This document shows, one piece after another, positions 45,521-55,633 of a stretch of 64,000 bases of DNA. This DNA is from Streptomycetaceae bacterium (GTDB lineage: Bacteria; Actinomycetota; Actinomycetes; Nanopelagicales; Nanopelagicaceae). The position numbers and the translations under genes are program-made. The stretch is taken from contig JAIXTW010000001.1 of the NCBI GenBank assembly GCA_027483765.1, positions 1 to 64,000 on the forward strand. Direction: 5' to 3'. How positions within the stretch are numbered: the stretch's first letter is position 1; every line of letters starts with the position of its first letter. The notes beneath the pieces are model-generated. The model did not search any database. It saw only the letters and a list, made by a program, of their open reading frames with translations, and was not told the origin of the DNA.

Positions 45521-45606
45521 GCGCTCCCGCGAAGCCCCTAGGGCAAGTTCGAAAACCCCCATCTGGTTGGTAATAAGCACCCCCTGCCATGGTGCAGAAT
45601 TCCCCC

Positions 45607-46251
45607 ATGCGCTTAGATCATGTTTCTTATGTGACTTCCCACGACCAACTAGCTGACACCGTGCAAAGACTGGGTTCACGCCTAGGCAGCACATTTGTAG
45701 ATGGAGGTATCCACCCTCGCTTTGGCACACGTAACTTCACTGCCTCACTTAAGAACGGTCAATACATAGAAGTTGTATGTCCACTTGATCACCCAGCTAC
45801 AGAACAGACACCTTGGGGTAAGGCAGTATCAAAGAAGGCTAACGAAGGCGGCGGTTGGTTCACTTGGGTATTTAGTACAAAAGACATCGCGCCTATTGCT
45901 ACAAAGTTTGGGCGTGAGGCAACAGAGGGTCACCGCACACGACCAAACGGCACAGACCTTAAGTGGAAACAAATCGGTGTCAAAGAGATTACTGATACTA
46001 GAGAGTTCCCATTCTTTATTCAGTGGTTATCTGCTGATCACCCATCACAAGACGGAACACCACTTGCTGAGATTGAGAAGATTGTTATTGCAGATATCGA
46101 TCAACTTGCTGACTCTTGGTTCAAGGCGGAAATCCTTGCATCTCTCGGTGATGTCACAATTGAGTGGGTAGACCCATCAACAAATGATGATCAGTCAGGG
46201 ATTGTTGCCGTGCACTTGGTTACTCCGGGTGGGATAGTGGTCTTAGATTAG
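45607..46251 (+). CDS. glyoxalase-like (VOC) domain protein
   Basis: A 214-residue protein beginning MRLDHVSYVT, typical of the Glyoxalase_3-like (PF13468) group, with a likely metal-binding histidine at the start and IEVVCPLDHP. I prefer the ATG at 45607 over 45589 because family members begin with this strand and a -10-like CAGAAT ends 6 nt before it. Base composition resembles the housekeeping genes more than its neighbours. The reaction is unknown. The 45521-45606 gap is GC-rich in patches but shows no RNA gene I can support. Confidence 0.7.
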   Translation: MRLDHVSYVTSHDQLADTVQRLGSRLGSTFVDGGIHPRFGTRNFTASLKNGQYIEVVCPLDHPATEQTPWGKAVSKKANEGGGWFTWVFSTKDIAPIATKFGREATEGHRTRPNGTDLKWKQIGVKEITDTREFPFFIQWLSADHPSQDGTPLAEIEKIVIADIDQLADSWFKAEILASLGDVTIEWVDPSTNDDQSGIVAVHLVTPGGIVVLD

Positions 46252-47091: not shown

Positions 47092-48009
47092 TTACTGATG
47101 CAGATTGCTTGGCTTAGTTCCAACTACCCAAATATTTCCGAGGGGAAGAACTACAGGAATTTTAGCGAGAAGCTTTTTGACCCTAGAATTAAGAATTATT
47201 TTCTTTAAATTAATGGGTAACGGAAGTAAATGAATAATGTATGCCAGGGAATATGAGTTCCAATAAGAACCGGTATTCACATCTGTATAACCTGCTTTTT
47301 CCAACAATTTCCTTGCTGTATTCTGAGAGAAGAGATAGGTGTGTTCAATATCAAAAATTGGCGACGCACCGCGAAGTAATCTTGCCGACAACGAGTTTAC
47401 GTTGTGAATCGCTACAACCATAATCCCACCAGGTTTAAGTGATTTCATACAAGACTGAAGAGTCGATACGGGGTCCGAGAGGTGATCAAGGGTGTGAAAC
47501 ATAGTCCCTACATCAAAATGGTCTTGGGGAAGCACTCCGTCACTCATCATCGCTTGCACTAAGTGTGGCCGAACATCCACTCGAGAATTACTTATTGCTT
47601 CGGCGCTCGGTTCAACCCCTGCTATCTGTTTGAACCCAAAATCTTTAGCTGCTCCGAGAAAAAAGCCATTTCCTCCGCCAATTTCAAATATCGCCGCATG
47701 CTTAGGGTTTAGTGACATTTGCCTACGAACAATCCGCAAATATGTGGACGTCAAGCCGACTAACTCGTCAGAGTAATCGAAGGTAGATTTTTCATATGCG
47801 CTCCCAAGGTCCACATCCTTGACTGGGTCTGACCGGAGAAGTTTGCAGGTTTTACATCGAACCCACCTGTAGTGAATACGGTCGGGCAATCTTCGTGCCG
47901 AGAAGAGTTCGTCAACTTTTAAATCGTCTGTAGTGCTTGCGTCTAGTAGTGTCGTAGAGTTGCCCTTAACATTACAAATGGCACAACTTGTTTCAATATT
48001 CGTTGACAT
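47092..48009 (-). CDS. SAM methyltransferase with N-terminal zinc-binding motifs
   Basis: A 305-residue protein. Two CxxC pairs at the N-terminus (CAIC near 9-12 and CKTC near 52-55) should bind zinc. A Methyltransf_23-like domain follows, with EIGGGNGFFLG and the motif FHTLDHLSDP. Such CxxC-methyltransferases are common in deoxysugar clusters (C-methyltransferase type). It overlaps the upstream GT2 gene by 17 nt and belongs to the rfbF-rfbG-GT2 operon, so a modified CDP-sugar product is a fair guess. Confidence 0.75.
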   Translation of the reverse strand: MSTNIETSCAICNVKGNSTTLLDASTTDDLKVDELFSARRLPDRIHYRWVRCKTCKLLRSDPVKDVDLGSAYEKSTFDYSDELVGLTSTYLRIVRRQMSLNPKHAAIFEIGGGNGFFLGAAKDFGFKQIAGVEPSAEAISNSRVDVRPHLVQAMMSDGVLPQDHFDVGTMFHTLDHLSDPVSTLQSCMKSLKPGGIMVVAIHNVNSLSARLLRGASPIFDIEHTYLFSQNTARKLLEKAGYTDVNTGSYWNSYSLAYIIHLLPLPINLKKIILNSRVKKLLAKIPVVLPLGNIWVVGTKPSNLHQ

Positions 48010-48943
48010 CAAAATTTATCTTCTCAACTTCAAACATGGCAGGCGATCTTCTGACCTGACCATGGATACTCAATACGTATTCACCTATTACGCCCAAGAA
48101 GAACAGCTGAATTCCACCCATAAGGAAGAGACCCACGATTACAGTCGTAATGCCCACTGGTGTTCCAAGATCAAAAAGCAATGCAGCGACGAAATTAAAA
48201 ACCGCATAAGCGATTCCCGCACCTGACATTAGAAACCCACCCAATAATGCCATCCGAGCGGGAACCCTGGAGGTAGACACAAACCCGTTGATGGCTTGAT
48301 CAATCAAAGATATCAAGCTGTTCTTAGATTTTCCTCGCACCCTCTTCTGCCAAGTGTAGGAAATAGAGTGGCTTTTAACACCTGTTTGAGCGATAAGACC
48401 TCGGATATATGGGTATTGATCGTCAAGCTCTAGAATTGAATCAATCACCCGTTTGTCGGCTAATAAGAACTCCCCTGAATTCAATGGAATATCAGTACTG
48501 GCAAATCTACGAATAATTCGATAATAAATTGATCGAGCGCTACGCATAAAAATTGATTCTTGGCGATTGATTCTTGCCCCGTAGGTAATAAGGCTTCCTT
48601 TTTCCCAGGACTCTACGAATAGAGGAATGACATCTACGGGATCTTGAAGGTCGGCTGGCAACAATGGCACTATTGCATCACCGGTTGCACTCTTCATTGC
48701 GTTCCACATATTACGAAAGGGACCAACATTGCGACTGTTTACTATCACTTTAATATTTTGGTCAGTTTTCGCAAGCTCGCGCAAAATATTGACTGTTGCA
48801 TCCAAGGAGGCATTATCGGCAAAAATATGTTCGTATTTATATCCTGGGAGCTTTGATTTCATTACCTTACTCAAAGCCGAGGCGCAGAGAGCAACATTTA
48901 GCTCTTCGTTATAACAAGGTGTGATAACACTAATCTTCTTCAT
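47993..48943 (-). CDS. GT2 glycosyltransferase with C-terminal membrane helices (GtrB/DPM1-like)
   Basis: A 316-residue enzyme with the GT-A start SVITPCYNEELNV, the DxD-like LPADLQDP and two C-terminal membrane segments (about 231-252 and 266-290). This is the architecture of polyprenyl-phosphate sugar synthases. It should transfer a sugar from a nucleotide to a lipid carrier. The ATG at 48943 has an AGGAG ribosome-binding site and overlaps the rfbG stop (ATGA). An upstream GTG at 48949 lies inside that site. Confidence 0.82.
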   Translation of the reverse strand: MKKISVITPCYNEELNVALCASALSKVMKSKLPGYKYEHIFADNASLDATVNILRELAKTDQNIKVIVNSRNVGPFRNMWNAMKSATGDAIVPLLPADLQDPVDVIPLFVESWEKGSLITYGARINRQESIFMRSARSIYYRIIRRFASTDIPLNSGEFLLADKRVIDSILELDDQYPYIRGLIAQTGVKSHSISYTWQKRVRGKSKNSLISLIDQAINGFVSTSRVPARMALLGGFLMSGAGIAYAVFNFVAALLFDLGTPVGITTVIVGLFLMGGIQLFFLGVIGEYVLSIHGQVRRSPAMFEVEKINFDVNEY

Positions 48944-50001
48944 GTCCACTCCTTATAAAATTCAATAATCTGTTTTTGCATTACTTCAATAGGAGGTTGC
49001 GAAAGTGCTTGGATTTCCCAATCCACGGTAAGTGAAACAGCCTCCCGGGCTTCAAAGATATTTCTCCAACCTAAGTCCTTTCTGGCAAGTTCTGAGGATA
49101 GCCAAAGAAAGGGAGTTTCCTTCATATGAAATTGTTCATCAACAAAATTGTAACCAGGATTACCAGGCCATTTTAATGATGCGAACTGAACTATCTCCTC
49201 AACTGTTCGCTTGGAATCCTCACCAGGTCCAAAGTTGTATGAATACTCAACTTTCTCCTCATTTAACATTTTTAGGCCAAGCATTAAATAACCATTTAAC
49301 GGATCTAGAACATGCTGCCACGGGCGAACATAAGACGGGTTTCTAACCACCAGTTGTTTATTTGCCGAAAAACTTCGAACGATATCCGGTAGCAATCGGT
49401 CTGAAGCGAAGTCACCCCCGCCGATTACATTGCCAGCGCGCACAGTTGATAATCGCAAGTCACTTTTTAGGAATAATGCAACATTTCTCCAGGATGAGAC
49501 TAAATGCTCCACAGCTGCCTTACTAGCGCTGTAAGGATCAGAACCACCTAATTTAGCGTTTTCTATGTAGGCGATACCTGAACCGGAGTTTTCATAAACT
49601 TTGTCTGTTGTCACAACAATAACCCATGGGGAAGACTTATAAACTGTGACTGAATTCAACAGATGGGCTGTACCCATAACGTTTGTGCTAAATGTTTCCA
49701 TCGGGAATTCATAGGAAAATCTCACTATAGGCTGTGCGGCTAGGTGAAAAATCCCGTCGAACTGATTTTGCTCGAAGTAATTTTGAATCTCTGAAGCATT
49801 TCTTAAATCTAAAAAAACTTCACCGGCCATCTCGGAATTTCCGATTCTGGAGTATAAGGATTTTTCATCAGGTGGCAATGAGAGCCCATAAACATTTGCA
49901 CCCGCGAGATTGAGAATTGAGGTAAGCCAGGAACCTTTAAACCCTGTATGACCGGTAACCAAGATTTTTTTCCCCGAGTAACTCGCAAGGTTTTCTATCA
50001 C
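48940..50001 (-). CDS. rfbG: CDP-glucose 4,6-dehydratase
   Basis: A 353-residue extended SDR converting CDP-glucose to CDP-4-keto-6-deoxyglucose. The cofactor loop is TGHTGFKGSW (16-25), the active-site TTDKVYE starts at 131, and YSASK (157-161) holds the catalytic tyrosine and lysine. The HTGFKGSW and LxAQPIVRxSY sequences are diagnostic for this family. It starts 4 nt after rfbF. It is the branch point for CDP-deoxysugars. Confidence 0.93.
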   Translation of the reverse strand: MIENLASYSGKKILVTGHTGFKGSWLTSILNLAGANVYGLSLPPDEKSLYSRIGNSEMAGEVFLDLRNASEIQNYFEQNQFDGIFHLAAQPIVRFSYEFPMETFSTNVMGTAHLLNSVTVYKSSPWVIVVTTDKVYENSGSGIAYIENAKLGGSDPYSASKAAVEHLVSSWRNVALFLKSDLRLSTVRAGNVIGGGDFASDRLLPDIVRSFSANKQLVVRNPSYVRPWQHVLDPLNGYLMLGLKMLNEEKVEYSYNFGPGEDSKRTVEEIVQFASLKWPGNPGYNFVDEQFHMKETPFLWLSSELARKDLGWRNIFEAREAVSLTVDWEIQALSQPPIEVMQKQIIEFYKEWT

Positions 50002-50005
50002 TACA

Positions 50006-50779
50006 TCATTTCCAATTCTTCCAGGGAGCCGCGCCGGAATCCCAGAGCTCGTTTAAGTCTTGGGTCTCTCGGTATGTGTCCATGGGTTGCCAAAAACCAT
50101 GGTGCTCATAGGCCTTTAGTTGCCCATCTGTCGCTAACTTTTCTAATGGGCCTTTCTCCAAAATACACTCAGAGTCTAGATATTCGAAAACTTGAGGTTC
50201 AAAAATGAAATACCCTCCACTGACCCATTTATCCGACTTCGGTTTCTCGGAAAAAGCAGTCACATTACCGTTTGAATTAATTTGCAATGAGCCAAAGCGA
50301 TTTGTTGGTCTCACAGCGGTTACTGTTGAAATTTTCCCATGAGCTTTATGAAAATTTGTGAGTTCTTCTACATTGACATCAGAAAGTCCATCTCCATATG
50401 TGCATAAAAATGTTTCCCCTTCAACATATTTTCTAATTCTTTCTATGCGTCCACCAGTCATGGTTAATGCGCCGGTATTTGCAAGCGTCACAGTCCAATC
50501 TTCTTCAATCGCAGGATTATTAATGGTAACAAGATTCTTTTCCCTCAGACTGACAGTGATGTCATGCGTTCTTTCTGCGTAGTTCATAAAATAATCTTTA
50601 ATAACCTCACCTTTATATCCAAGGCAGATTACGAATTCGTTGATTCCTTGCGAAGATAAGTTTTTCATTATGTGCCACAAAATTGGTTGATCGCCGATCT
50701 GCACCATCGGCTTAGGCTTGAATTCAGTCTCTTCGCGTAGGCGCGTTCCCAGCCCACCTGCCAGAATGACCGCTTTCAT
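50006..50779 (-). CDS. rfbF: glucose-1-phosphate cytidylyltransferase
   Basis: Makes CDP-glucose from CTP and glucose 1-phosphate. The nucleotidyltransferase start MKAVILAGGLGTRLREET and EFKPKPMVQIGDQPILWHIM are the family signature. I choose the ATG at 50779, the usual family start, with GGGGG upstream. An ATG four codons earlier (50791) is possible. It heads the leftward operon rfbF-rfbG-GT2-methyltransferase, and is divergent from the transketolase pair across about 120 bp. Confidence 0.93.
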   Translation of the reverse strand: MKAVILAGGLGTRLREETEFKPKPMVQIGDQPILWHIMKNLSSQGINEFVICLGYKGEVIKDYFMNYAERTHDITVSLREKNLVTINNPAIEEDWTVTLANTGALTMTGGRIERIRKYVEGETFLCTYGDGLSDVNVEELTNFHKAHGKISTVTAVRPTNRFGSLQINSNGNVTAFSEKPKSDKWVSGGYFIFEPQVFEYLDSECILEKGPLEKLATDGQLKAYEHHGFWQPMDTYRETQDLNELWDSGAAPWKNWK

Positions 50780-50900
50780 TTCTACCCCCATTTAACTAAT
50801 CCGAATAGTAGACTCCTATCGGCGGATTCCGGAACATTTAGAGTGAAATGCATCTGCTAAGAGCAATTATAAAGCATTCATTGAGAACGGAGATACGACA

Positions 50901-51722
50901 GTGCGCCACGATTTCGCATTTGCCAATCCAGAAGATCTTGCAAGGAGTGCACGAAAAGAAATATTAAAAATGACTCATAATGCAAAGGCATCACATGTGG
51001 GATCTGCTCTATCTGTCGTAGATATTCTGAGTACGATTTATTTTAACCTGACTCCACCCGTGCCTGATTCTTTCAGTTTAAATGAACGGGACATCGTAAT
51101 CCTTTCAAAAGGACATGCAGCAGCAGCGCTTTATTCAGTACTTGCACTTCAGAATTACTTTCCAATTTCTTGGTTGGAAGATTACTGCAAAAATGGTGCA
51201 CAACTTGGGGGCCATGTCACCGCAAAAGGAGTGCCTGGGGTTGAGCTCTCGACTGGAAGCCTGGGTCACGGATTGCCTTATGGTCTAGGAATAGCTCTCG
51301 CTCGAAAGCGGAATTCTCTCAGCGGAAAAGTTTTTGTTGTAATTTCAGACGGCGAATGTGATGAAGGAACAACTTGGGAATCTGCTTTAATTGCTAACCA
51401 GCACAAATTGGACAACTTAATCGTTATTATTGACCGCAATAGAATTCAATCGTTGGGTAGCACGGAAGACACAGTCAAACTCGAGCCGCTTGCGGACAAG
51501 TGGGAGGCTTTTGGTTGGGAAGTCGATTCCATCGACGGACATAACTGCTCACAATTGCAGAAAGCTTTTAGCTCACAGAAATCCCCCAAGTGCATAATCG
51601 CGAATACAACAAAGGGGAAAGGTGTTGACTTTATGGAAGATACAGTCATTTGGCATTACAAATCCCCGTCGGATCTCCAACTATCAGAAGCGCTTAGCCA
51701 GATAGAAAAATCCAAAAAATGA
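50901..51722 (+). CDS. split transketolase, N-terminal (ThDP-binding) subunit
   Basis: A 273-residue protein equal to the first third of a transketolase. It has SKGHAAAALYSVL (69-81), GSLGHGLPYGLGIALA (119-134), and a ThDP/metal segment SDGECDEGTTWESALIA with DRN at 178-180. It needs the next gene's product for a complete active site. The start is a GTG at 50901 with GGAG upstream. Position in a polysaccharide cluster suggests a special role, not central metabolism. Confidence 0.88.
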   Translation: MRHDFAFANPEDLARSARKEILKMTHNAKASHVGSALSVVDILSTIYFNLTPPVPDSFSLNERDIVILSKGHAAAALYSVLALQNYFPISWLEDYCKNGAQLGGHVTAKGVPGVELSTGSLGHGLPYGLGIALARKRNSLSGKVFVVISDGECDEGTTWESALIANQHKLDNLIVIIDRNRIQSLGSTEDTVKLEPLADKWEAFGWEVDSIDGHNCSQLQKAFSSQKSPKCIIANTTKGKGVDFMEDTVIWHYKSPSDLQLSEALSQIEKSKK

Positions 51723-52642
51723 GAGACGCCTTTATCCAATCTCTGGCGAGACAAGCGGAACTAAACCCAAACCTTGTTTTAATTACTGGAGATTTAGGTT
51801 ATGGAGTCCTGGATAAGTTCAGTCAAGAATTCCCAAACCAATTTATTAATGCTGGCATAAATGAACAAACAATGATGGGAATGGCTGCCGGCTATGCCTC
51901 AACTGGAAAAAAAGTTTTTGTATACAGTATAGGAAATTTTTCAACCTTAAGATGCTTGGAGCAGATTAGAAACGACGTTTGTCTCATGAATAATCCAGTG
52001 GTTGTTGTTTCTGTCGGTGCTGGGTACTCGTACGGAAGCCAGGGTTACTCACATCATGCTTTGGAAGATATTGCAGTTATGCGTGCCTTACCAAACATGG
52101 AGGTACTTGTTCCCGCAGATCCAATTGAAACAGGTCACATTACCCGCTATCTCAGCACCAGCTCGAAACCTGCCTACTTGCGACTAGGTAAAAGCAACGA
52201 AGCGATTTATCACGAATCAAATTTCGACTTCAAACCGGGAAAAATTAACGAATTGCAATCCGGCAACGACGGAACAATCCTGTTTTCAGGAAGCGTCGGG
52301 GGTATTGCTCTCGAAGCATCGCGCCAGTTAAGCCACACAGGAATAACTGTCGCGGTTGCCTCGGTCCCATTTATTACTTCACTTGATCGAGATTATTTGG
52401 AGCTTGCATCATCGAAGGGACCAATTGTTGTTGTCGAGGAACATTCAAAACGTGGAGGCCTATCCTCAGCAATCTTAGAATTTGCAAGCGATGAGAATTT
52501 AACAATTAAGATTGGAATGATTGCAAGTGAGCAAAATGATCTTTCATTGATTGGCGATCAGGACTATTTACGAGAGGTGAATGGAATTTCGGCAGAAACA
52601 GTCATCAAGAGATTTAAGGCCTTTGCGGCAGTCCAAGATTAA
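51719..52642 (+). CDS. split transketolase, C-terminal subunit
   Basis: A 307-residue protein with the pyrimidine-binding domain (ITGDLGYG, then FINAGINEQTMMGMAAGYA, where the glutamate activates ThDP) and the C-terminal domain. It overlaps the N-terminal subunit gene by 4 nt (ATGA), which couples their synthesis. Its 3' end overlaps the convergent SDR gene by 29 nt. Together the two subunits could transfer a two-carbon ketol unit, possibly onto the CDP-4-keto sugar made by RfbG. Confidence 0.88.
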   Translation: MRDAFIQSLARQAELNPNLVLITGDLGYGVLDKFSQEFPNQFINAGINEQTMMGMAAGYASTGKKVFVYSIGNFSTLRCLEQIRNDVCLMNNPVVVVSVGAGYSYGSQGYSHHALEDIAVMRALPNMEVLVPADPIETGHITRYLSTSSKPAYLRLGKSNEAIYHESNFDFKPGKINELQSGNDGTILFSGSVGGIALEASRQLSHTGITVAVASVPFITSLDRDYLELASSKGPIVVVEEHSKRGGLSSAILEFASDENLTIKIGMIASEQNDLSLIGDQDYLREVNGISAETVIKRFKAFAAVQD

Positions 52643-53570
52643 TTAATTGACCTCCAATTAAAGGGAGCGGTGGCACGTAACTACGTGTGAACCACGAAAT
52701 TGTCTGCGTTACCCCATCTTCAAATCTCACCTGAGGTTCCCATCCGACACTTTCCAGTTTCGTGCAACTAGGGCTCAGTCTCATGACTTGATCTTGCCGG
52801 TAAGGAACGGCCCCAAAATTGAGTAAGTTTAAGGAATTCATCCGAGAGCCAATAAATGAAACAGCATCTCGGATAGTGACCAATTCTTTATTTCCAACGT
52901 TCACGACCCCACTTATCTGTGAAGAACTTAAGGTTTCCTTAACCGCGGTTGCCACATCGAATGCGTGAAGGTAACTCCATTCTTGCTCAGCCGGGGTGAG
53001 GTCAATTGCTTTTCCCATATCAAGAGAGTCAATAACACTTGGAATTAACCACTTTGGTGAATCCATAGGACCGTACGTAGAAAAGACCCGCAACCAAACA
53101 AATCTAGATTTACTACCAATGAGAATCTTTTCGAGCGCAAGCCTGGCTTGGATCTTTGCGACCCCGTAGGCAGTCGTTGGATTATCGTCCGCGTTCTCAG
53201 TTATTTCATCAAAATGCGGGCCCACCTCGGCCTGACTTCCAACTGCCATCACAATTCCCGTTTCGACCGAATTCGCAGCCTTCACCAACTGAGCCCATCT
53301 ATCTAAGTTCTCTTTTTGAAGTGATGAGTTCCGCTCGCTATTTCCTACGCCAGCCCAGTCAAAAAGCAATAGTGCGTCAGGCTCGCTACGCTGAACAAAT
53401 TGTGCCCATTCACTTGCAGGCATTGGACGCAATTCCAAATTTTCAATCCCAGAAAGTCTATACGTGTTTGAATGTGGTTGAAAAAGCCCAATAACCTTGT
53501 GGTTTTGTGCGAGCAATCGGCAAACCCAGGAACCTAGAAAACCAGTCGCTCCACTAACTACGATTTTCAT
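52614..53570 (-). CDS. NAD-dependent epimerase/dehydratase family protein, possible CDP-sugar ketoreductase
   Basis: A 318-residue extended SDR with the cofactor loop SGATGFLGSW (6-15) and the catalytic YGVAK. It resembles short epimerase/reductases such as those reducing CDP-4-keto-deoxyhexoses (abequose or paratose synthase type). With rfbF, rfbG and the transketolase pair nearby, it could finish the CDP-sugar. The substrate is inferred from context only. Confidence 0.7.
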   Translation of the reverse strand: MKIVVSGATGFLGSWVCRLLAQNHKVIGLFQPHSNTYRLSGIENLELRPMPASEWAQFVQRSEPDALLLFDWAGVGNSERNSSLQKENLDRWAQLVKAANSVETGIVMAVGSQAEVGPHFDEITENADDNPTTAYGVAKIQARLALEKILIGSKSRFVWLRVFSTYGPMDSPKWLIPSVIDSLDMGKAIDLTPAEQEWSYLHAFDVATAVKETLSSSQISGVVNVGNKELVTIRDAVSFIGSRMNSLNLLNFGAVPYRQDQVMRLSPSCTKLESVGWEPQVRFEDGVTQTISWFTRSYVPPLPLIGGQLINLGLPQRP

Positions 53571-53586
53571 TGCAATCTATCTAGCA

Positions 53587-54147
53587 TTAGTTTTTATTCT
53601 CTTCCCAGCCAGTCAAACTAAACATTTTTGATAATTGATTCGCTATTTGAAAATAGAACTCACCTCTTCTAGTAAGGACTATTTGGTTGTCTTCTTTTTT
53701 CATTAAACCACGCTCAGTGTGCTCTTCGATTCTTTGCAGAATTGCATCTGGAACTAATCGCTCTGAAGACTTCACCAACTCCAAGTCTAAAGAACCCTGG
53801 ACAAAATTTATTGAATTATTGTGTGCCCAGGAGAGAATGTATAGCGACCTAGACCTGTCAATATTCAAAAGGGTACCCTGTGCAATAAGTATAAATAAAA
53901 GTAGACCTGTAATCAGTGATCGGAAGACTAGTGCAATTTTGAACCTAGATAATATTGGAACAAAACCTAATATAAGTATTCCTGTCAATATGGCAGCTAA
54001 GAGCATTTGCTCAAATAGCAAATCCGCGAGAATGTTTAACTGAATAACTATAAACAAGGACAGAAATCCAACAACGTTAATTATCGCAAGCAACCCAAAT
54101 ATCCGCAAAACACTTCTTATAAGAGTCACCCAGTCTCGCTTTTCCAT
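53587..54147 (-). CDS. unrecognised small membrane protein with a C-terminal cytoplasmic domain
   Basis: A 186-residue protein not recognised. Three hydrophobic segments fill the first half (about residues 12-35, 43-63 and 71-92). A helical, charged region follows, containing DRSRSLYILSW and a winged-helix-like end (DAILQRIEEHTERGLMKKEDNQIVLTRRGEFYFQ reads like a short marR/HTH-type wing in pieces). I choose the ATG at 54147 because TAAAGT ends 7 nt before it. It is divergent from the larger membrane protein gene at 54233 and may work with it. Confidence 0.6.
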   Translation of the reverse strand: MEKRDWVTLIRSVLRIFGLLAIINVVGFLSLFIVIQLNILADLLFEQMLLAAILTGILILGFVPILSRFKIALVFRSLITGLLLFILIAQGTLLNIDRSRSLYILSWAHNNSINFVQGSLDLELVKSSERLVPDAILQRIEEHTERGLMKKEDNQIVLTRRGEFYFQIANQLSKMFSLTGWEENKN

Positions 54148-54154
54148 ATCTGGC

Positions 54155-54160
54155 ACTTTA
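54155..54160 (-). promoter_or_regulatory. -10 hexamer before the small membrane protein gene
   Basis: TAAAGT on the minus strand ends 7 nt before the ATG at 54147. No Shine-Dalgarno sequence is seen. Confidence 0.4.
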
Positions 54161-54221
54161 CCAGCCGAAGTAGTTTGGAAATGCTTCGACGTACCTACTC
54201 AAGATTCATCGACTGTCGCGA

Positions 54222-54227
54222 TAGACT
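54222..54227 (+). promoter_or_regulatory. -10 hexamer before the large membrane protein gene
   Basis: TAGACT ends 5 nt before the ATG at 54233, the same hexamer as before galE and the MFS-tmk gene. No Shine-Dalgarno sequence is seen. Confidence 0.5.
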
Positions 54228-54232
54228 TAATC

Positions 54233-55633
54233 ATGCGCAAGACGGTATCGACGGCCCGCCCCAACGGATTAAAAATCAATAAGTTCCGCGTAATTGAGAT
54301 CTCCATAATTCTCTTCTGGTACTTGTCCTTGTTTCCGGGGAGACTTGGGTTCGATGGCTCCGCGGCGATTCGTATGATTCAACAAGGTCAGAGCACTGAC
54401 TGGTGGACGGCTTCATTCTTTTGGTTTCTTCGCATCTTCACAATCGGTGGAGAGAGTATCTATCTGGCTTCATTGGTCACTTATCTACTTCTGGCCTTTT
54501 CGGTGAAGTATTTGATTTTTGCTTTGCCGACTACAGAGAAAATCCGACGCCGTGCCTACTTAATTATCTTGGCAACCCCAATAGTTTCAGTGTTTGGTTT
54601 GACGGTTAGTCATGATTCATTTCAAGTGGCAGGAATTCTGATTTTAGTTGGATTTCAAATCAGAGAAATGAACTCTAAGGATGAGAACAAAGCAAAGGCA
54701 ATCCCAATTCTTTCGATAGCGTACCTCAGTTTAATGACCACCCATTTTGGTTTAGCGATTATCGCTTTAGATGTTTTGTTGCATTTCTCCCGGCGGTTAT
54801 TTCGTCGAGGATCATTATTGGCAGGAATTGTTATTCTCATATATGTAGCCAGTTCTTTTGGGGTTACAAAGCATGACCCGTCTGCCAATACTTCATGGAT
54901 GGTCGCAGACTTGAAATGCGTAGCGCAACATCCGGAAGCGAGGCTGAGTGCAGCGGATTGGAATTTCTTAGAATCAATCGCTCCAAAAACCGAATGGCAG
55001 ACGCCATTAAGTTGCACTACTGTCGATGAACCCGTCGGAACTCTGGCGAGTAGAAATCGCGAGGCACTACTTTTTAATACCGAATTTGCGCTCAATTACT
55101 TGAGTGTGGCTGCAAAAAATCCGGCAGTTGTGGCGATGGCCCATATTCAGCGGTCCAGAGGGGCCCTGCCCCCACCTTTTTTCCAAGGACCCGATAATCA
55201 AGTTGAGCTCGATCCATCTATTCCAATTGGATTTGGGACGAACATCGCCTTGCAGAACAGTATAGAGATGCTTCACCCATCGATTGATGAGCCATCCGTC
55301 AAAATCGAACTCGCTCCATTGAAACCCCTAGAGGTCATTGGGCAGGGATTAATTTTCATTGTGAATCAGGCCTCCTGGTTCTGGGGCTGGGGTGGGCTGT
55401 GGCTGTGGCCTACTTTCTACTTTTTTATCACTCGTTTTCGGAAGACAAGATTAATCACAAGGGTTAAACCACTATTCCCAGTAATTCTGTTACACGGACT
55501 TCTCGTCGCAATTGGCCCAGCACCGCTCCCCAGATACGTGATGGCCGCGGTGGTTGCCGGGGTTACATGTTCCATAGTTATGATTCTTGAATGGCTGCAC
55601 AAAACCAAAGACATCTTGGAACCTCACATTTAA
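54233..55633 (+). CDS. large membrane protein, GT-C-like, possibly glycosyltransferase or polymerase
   Basis: A 466-residue protein with about nine hydrophobic segments and a large extracytoplasmic insert (about residues 205-350). The first loop, FPGRLGFDGSAAIRMIQQGQSTDWW, is like the acidic first loop of GT-C glycosyltransferases and DUF6020-type proteins. This suggests a lipid-linked-sugar transferase on the outer face. No family is recognised with certainty. It is divergent from the unknown membrane protein at 53587. Confidence 0.6.
   Translation: MRKTVSTARPNGLKINKFRVIEISIILFWYLSLFPGRLGFDGSAAIRMIQQGQSTDWWTASFFWFLRIFTIGGESIYLASLVTYLLLAFSVKYLIFALPTTEKIRRRAYLIILATPIVSVFGLTVSHDSFQVAGILILVGFQIREMNSKDENKAKAIPILSIAYLSLMTTHFGLAIIALDVLLHFSRRLFRRGSLLAGIVILIYVASSFGVTKHDPSANTSWMVADLKCVAQHPEARLSAADWNFLESIAPKTEWQTPLSCTTVDEPVGTLASRNREALLFNTEFALNYLSVAAKNPAVVAMAHIQRSRGALPPPFFQGPDNQVELDPSIPIGFGTNIALQNSIEMLHPSIDEPSVKIELAPLKPLEVIGQGLIFIVNQASWFWGWGGLWLWPTFYFFITRFRKTRLITRVKPLFPVILLHGLLVAIGPAPLPRYVMAAVVAGVTCSIVMILEWLHKTKDILEPHI

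Follow-up and report, generated by a model that had tools for sequence, protein, structure and literature searches.

Locus and setting

Two divergent genes in a glycan island, coding for unassigned membrane proteins of 186 and 466 residues, raise the question of whether their products act together. A reading of the sequence alone had suggested that they could be a lipid-linked-sugar transferase or polymerase and its accessory factor. The window (the whole stretch of 64,000 nucleotides analysed here) is part of a 73,323-base contig from a 1.29-Mb genome that is 96% complete, and its GC content is 0.44-0.54 up to approximately 45 kb and 0.38-0.45 beyond. In appearance the lineage resembles Planktophila, a genus of fresh waters. 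The features relevant to the question are as follows.

45589..46251, plus strand: glyoxalase-like gene (Pfam Glyoxalase_3), beside which the variable glycan island starts
47993..48949, minus strand: GT2, PgfS/ArnC-like over its full length, candidate polyprenyl-phosphate-sugar synthase of the island
52614..53570, minus strand: SDR-type NAD-dependent epimerase/dehydratase (Pfam Epimerase, E 1.9e-24)
53587..54147, minus strand, ATG at 54147: 186-aa orphan membrane protein (P0001)
54148..54232: intergenic gap of 85 bp shared by the 186-aa and 466-aa genes
54155..54160, minus strand: TAAAGT, leaderless-type -10 match, 7 nt before the ATG of the 186-aa gene
54222..54227, plus strand: TAGACT, leaderless-type -10 match, 5 nt before the ATG of the 466-aa gene
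54233..55633, plus strand, ATG at 54233: 466-aa GT-C-fold glycosyltransferase-like protein (P0002)

The glyoxalase-like gene is followed by genes for the synthesis of CDP-glucose and CDP-4-keto-6-deoxyglucose, by glycosyltransferases and by methyltransferases. It is present in 60 of the 135 genomes of the genus (E <= 1e-20), and in the stretches beside it from 20 of these 60 genomes the window's glycan-type genes turn up again in varying assortments, which identifies the region of the divergent pair as a variable, replaceable surface-glycan island.

A split transketolase pair at 50006-52642, with N and C halves that overlap by 4 nt, adjoins the CDP-glucose genes; such pairs also occur in three of the 20 island stretches (L100, L109 and L112), with rfbF near two of them, and could possibly provide a step in branched-chain CDP-sugar synthesis. 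The island runs on past the window (L063:7944-13142, contig positions) with an ABC transporter, a phage-type integrase and a 772-aa protein. NCBIfam matches of the transporter include HepA, MsbA and PglK, all of them below cut-off; the secreted-looking 772-aa protein has no Pfam match, and it might be the surface protein that the island glycan decorates.

The two genes and their shared gap

The divergent arrangement with a common 85-bp gap proved exact in coordinates, lengths and strands, and both reading frames look like real genes by codon preference. The score per codon is 0.115 for the 186-aa gene and 0.072 for the 466-aa gene, whereas 16 other genes of the island, taken as reference, score 0.072-0.152 and their wrong frames do not exceed -0.108. 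Leaderless-type promoters had also been proposed. A -10 match of this type (TANNNT ending 5-8 nt before an ATG) does precede both starts, but 90 of the 1946 ATGs on the two strands of the window carry one (4.6%), so the two matches are suggestive only. A sigma-70 consensus scan placed no site in the gap, and the region as a whole has 10 such sites compared with a shuffle mean of 10.8.

The 466-aa protein: a very probable GT-C-fold glycosyltransferase

Searches of Pfam, NCBIfam and PHROGs gave the 466-aa protein no family match of its own. With a profile, matches were obtained in 11 of 135 genomes of the genus (E <= 0.001) and in 9 of 296 of the class sample, its own genome being included in both counts, and full-length or split relatives were identified in seven other genomes: G015, G026, G141 and G063 within the genus and G715, G739 and G770 in a sister genus. 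Left out of this set were five weak genus rows (E from 2e-4 up to 9e-4, over roughly 150 positions), G131, a fragment located where its contig ends, and three rows of the class sample, namely the weak G624 and G643 and the distant G628 (E 8.7e-13). Weak profile rows that were read in L041, L043 and L050 belong to a different membrane family, which carries the motif WLGADGENYL. Its members are membrane proteins of approximately 460 aa, in L041 encoded downstream of a purM-like gene as judged by eye, and possibly represent another GT-C branch.

Analysis of gene neighbourhoods revealed that an upstream GT2 gene, of a type that produces polyprenyl-phosphate-sugar donors, shares 1-4 nt with the GT-C gene in six of the seven relatives (G015, G026, G141, G715, G739 and G770). 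The two partner GT2s that were scanned against NCBIfam, those of G015 and G715, have AglJ and ArnC among their matches, below the cut-offs. By eye, purF- and purM-like genes come after the GT2 and GT-C pair in G026, G141, G715 and G739. The closest relative, with 34% identity as against 22-23% for the others, is that of G063, where the GT-C gene directly follows the glyoxalase gene and stands alone, with no GT2 beside it. In G015, the pair lies approximately 28 kb from the glyoxalase gene and near a large surface-protein-like gene, the start of which resembles (by eye) that of a protein encoded near the end of the contig that holds the window; the G015 pair may therefore be part of this island as well, at its far end.

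The relatives also match known families weakly. Pfam PMT_2 is matched by four of the seven (best E 0.017), DUF2142 by four (best E 5.3e-4) and DUF6020 by two (best E 1), all of these being sub-threshold; no such match falls under E 5e-4 or reaches a curated cut-off, and none of the three families is hit by the window protein at E <= 10. A search of the PDB with a sequence profile returned nothing.

A structural model was built by AF2 from seven sequences and is of modest confidence (pLDDT 62.5, pTM 0.65). Comparison of this model with solved structures gave 36 top rows, all of which we take to be GT-C-fold chains, with Z from 14.6 to 7.9. They are headed by Pmt1 (Z 14.6, 280 residues, 4.3 A), ArnT (13.8) and AglB (13.5), and include OST subunits, Emb, AftA, GPI mannosyltransferase I, ALG3, AftD, DPY19, AftB and the U chain of GPI transamidase; the first row outside the fold is SecDF at Z 4.9. 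Foldseek, which had been named as a check on the GT-C assignment, likewise ranks Pmt4 and ArnT first, but with E values of just 0.04-0.05.

Could the protein be some other multi-spanning membrane protein, for example a transporter? The modest confidence of the model and the want of a family of its own would leave room for this, whereas the clear drop in Z from the GT-C rows (7.9) to the remainder (4.9) and the GT2 partner gene in six of seven relatives argue against it, and we consider it very improbable. Thus, on the fold comparison, the GT2 partner genes and the weak family matches of the relatives taken together, the GT-C-like character first read from the sequence holds up: with high probability the protein belongs to the GT-C-fold glycosyltransferases, as a divergent representative of a type already known. 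Two aspartates, Asp41 and Asp128, are shared by all seven aligned sequences. Asp41 follows the first membrane segment, in a first loop that lacks a strict DxD and whose side of the membrane is predicted. Most likely, the enzyme is an extracytoplasmic transferase dependent on a polyprenyl-phosphate sugar, the donor type and the sidedness being inferred. Nothing was found that points to the polymerase role that had been offered as an alternative.

The family represents a divergent GT-C branch in small-genome actinobacteria that has no name in Pfam or NCBIfam, and the GT2 partner gene of the relatives offers a ready test of its donor and role.

The 186-aa protein is an orphan with a predicted winged-helix-like tail

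Three hydropathy peaks (mean KD 2.5-2.7 over 19 residues) followed by a C-terminal stretch of about 75-90 residues agree with the three membrane segments and tail first read from the sequence. That it has no named family likewise holds for Pfam (best E 0.11), NCBIfam (0.061) and PHROGs (0.34), and GtrA (PF04138) is absent from its Pfam matches at E <= 1.

Searches of 60 relatives, of the genus (135 genomes) and the order (296), and of samples of the class (394) and the phylum (396), sets that overlap, gave no convincing homologue, and neither did those of plasmids, phages and viral contigs, where matches to a Vibrio plasmid (E 2) and an Arthrobacter phage (E 4) were taken as noise. Four further weak matches were read and rejected, their surroundings being named by eye: that in G136 (39% identity along 53 aa, interrupted by a TGA) falls within an MMPL-transporter-like stretch, that in G887 in a ZIP-transporter-like frame, that in L030 in an NrdR-like protein, and that in L026 in an antisense frame. 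Of the 396 genomes in the phylum sample, 21 give a match at E <= 0.1, its own included; two of the 20 foreign genomes were read, and the loci of the other 18, together with those of the genus, were re-scored by phmmer against open frames, the best foreign locus reaching 15.5 bits. In the two best of these 18 (E 7.3e-4 and 8.5e-4), three stops interrupt the match. Nor did the 20 stretches beside the glyoxalase gene (taken from 20 of the 60 genomes that carry it; three stretches are <= 3 kb long) contain a diverged small three-segment protein, the best phmmer E being 0.023. None of the papers listed in literature searches describes a protein with three helices and a winged helix encoded next to a GT-C gene.

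In a weak, single-sequence AF2 model (pLDDT 69.4, pTM 0.37), the C-terminal part appears winged-helix-like, and its structural matches are MarR/HxlR-type proteins and others. The best Z of 6.9 (94 residues, 3.3 A) is in the middling range for the tool, in which values below 8 may reflect merely a common arrangement; the best Foldseek E is 0.008. Absence of a family from the structural match list was not counted as evidence.

One explanation of this fold is a membrane-anchored regulator with a cytoplasmic, DNA-binding winged helix. It would account for the MarR/HxlR-type matches, for sub-threshold helix-turn-helix hits (IlvY, E 0.061, NCBIfam; HVO_A0261_N, E 0.18, Pfam) and for the divergent position of the gene, which is typical of regulators. 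The distribution of charge speaks against it: K+R counts of 4 at the N-terminus, 0 in loop 1, 3 in loop 2 and 2 beyond segment 3 argue for an N-in, C-out topology that would place the C-terminal domain outside the cell, and we regard a regulator as unlikely. A membrane-anchored domain of winged-helix-like build, which may lie outside the cell, would be the one odd feature of the protein, as far as a weak model of an orphan allows, and the importance of the protein would rise considerably if an outer winged helix were borne out. As it stands, it illustrates how a variable surface-glycan island can carry a membrane orphan that resists assignment.

The two proteins are not supported as a pair

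By the refuting condition that came with the sequence-only reading, the two families do not co-occur. A search that took in all 135 genus and 296 order genomes, with G715, G739 and G770 taken as covered by the order search because they are of the same family and that search is not marked as a sample, found a homologue of the 186-aa protein in none of the seven genomes with a GT-C relative, although a gene without homologues cannot strictly be assessed in this way. No protein of the 186-aa type lies near the GT-C gene of G063. A functional pair is thus not supported by the comparison of genomes; given that the 186-aa protein lacks any homologue, this does not prove that the two proteins never interact. 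Of the sequence-only reading, the GT-C enzyme is supported and its pairing with an accessory factor is not.

The 186-aa and SDR genes are on the same strand and 16 bp apart, with the SDR gene downstream, so that the latter is a more natural partner of the 186-aa gene than the GT-C gene is; the two are likely co-transcribed and expressed together.

An accessory factor would use an outer winged helix to help the GT-C enzyme bind its acceptor, and it is the adjacent, divergent position with a shared gap that suggests such a role, together with the charge bias, which predicts the domain to be at the outer face, the side of GT-C catalysis. Passages of a review also speculate that GT-C enzymes of smaller size may rely on another protein for acceptor binding (PMC8035078). 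Set against this are the missing homologue in all seven genomes with a GT-C relative and the fact that divergent genes are not co-transcribed, the SDR gene being the nearer same-strand neighbour. A helper role is conceivable, and we found no direct support for it; we judge an accessory factor of this kind to be very unlikely. Still further from likely is the bolder proposal that the protein founds a family in which a winged helix is displayed outside as an acceptor- or substrate-binding subunit for extracytoplasmic glycosylation, to which we give very little weight.

The preferred reading is that these are two separate island genes, one for a lipid-donor GT-C enzyme and one for an orphan that is linked to the SDR gene and is not a conserved GT-C partner; this we consider probable.

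Donor supply and proposed mechanism

The window GT-C gene has neither a GT2 nor a flippase gene beside it, and no GtrA flippase in the genome passes the cut-off. The island GT2 at 47993-48949 matches PgfS (E 2.7e-46) and ArnC (PRK10714, E 9.3e-32) in NCBIfam, both below the curated cut-offs. A further GT2 gene of the genome overlaps lnt (L115), which is the arrangement of actinobacterial Ppm1.

A mechanism is proposed where a GT2 synthase at the cytoplasmic face would load one sugar onto polyprenyl phosphate, the loaded carrier would be flipped across the membrane, and outside the cell the 466-aa enzyme would transfer the sugar to a glycan or glycoprotein of the surface. The putative catalytic residues are Asp41, which follows the first membrane segment, and Asp128. 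Either the PgfS/ArnC-like GT2 of the island or the chromosomal GT2 next to lnt could be the source of the donor. Multi-component transmembrane glycosylation systems in which polyprenyl-phosphate-sugar donors feed GT-C enzymes are described in parts of a review (PMC8035078).

With a synthase-type GT2 in the island, the 186-aa protein might instead help that cytoplasmic enzyme in the manner of GacJ, which passages of the same review present as a three-helix membrane protein thought to assist the GT-A enzyme GacI in making a lipid-linked sugar (PMC8035078). The three membrane segments would fit such a role, while the protein has no Pfam match to any such family and its gene does not adjoin the GT2 gene. 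A winged-helix tail is also not known for GacJ, and a GacJ-like helper seems very improbable.

Comparison with known systems

In its fold, in the GT2 synthase partner gene of its relatives and in the one invariant acidic residue of the first loop of its family, the 466-aa protein resembles the GT-C polyprenyl-phosphate-sugar transferases PMT, ArnT and GtlB, the last from three-component systems. It differs from them in passing no family cut-off, in having no strict DxD in the first loop and in the lack of an adjoining GT2 or flippase gene in the window. The nearest Pfam families, PMT_2, DUF2142 and DUF6020, are matched weakly by the relatives, while the window protein is left unmatched at E <= 10.

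The C-terminal part of the 186-aa protein shares its helix-strand arrangement, as predicted by the single-sequence model, with MarR/HxlR-type winged-helix proteins. In contrast to these, its domain comes after three membrane segments and is predicted to lie outside, identity is 6-20% in the rows shown, and no sequence family is matched. With GacJ and GtrA, as described in passages of the review, it has in common the size class, three to four membrane helices and a location near glycosylation genes (PMC8035078); unlike them, it combines these with a predicted winged-helix-like tail, and it has no GtrA match at E <= 1.
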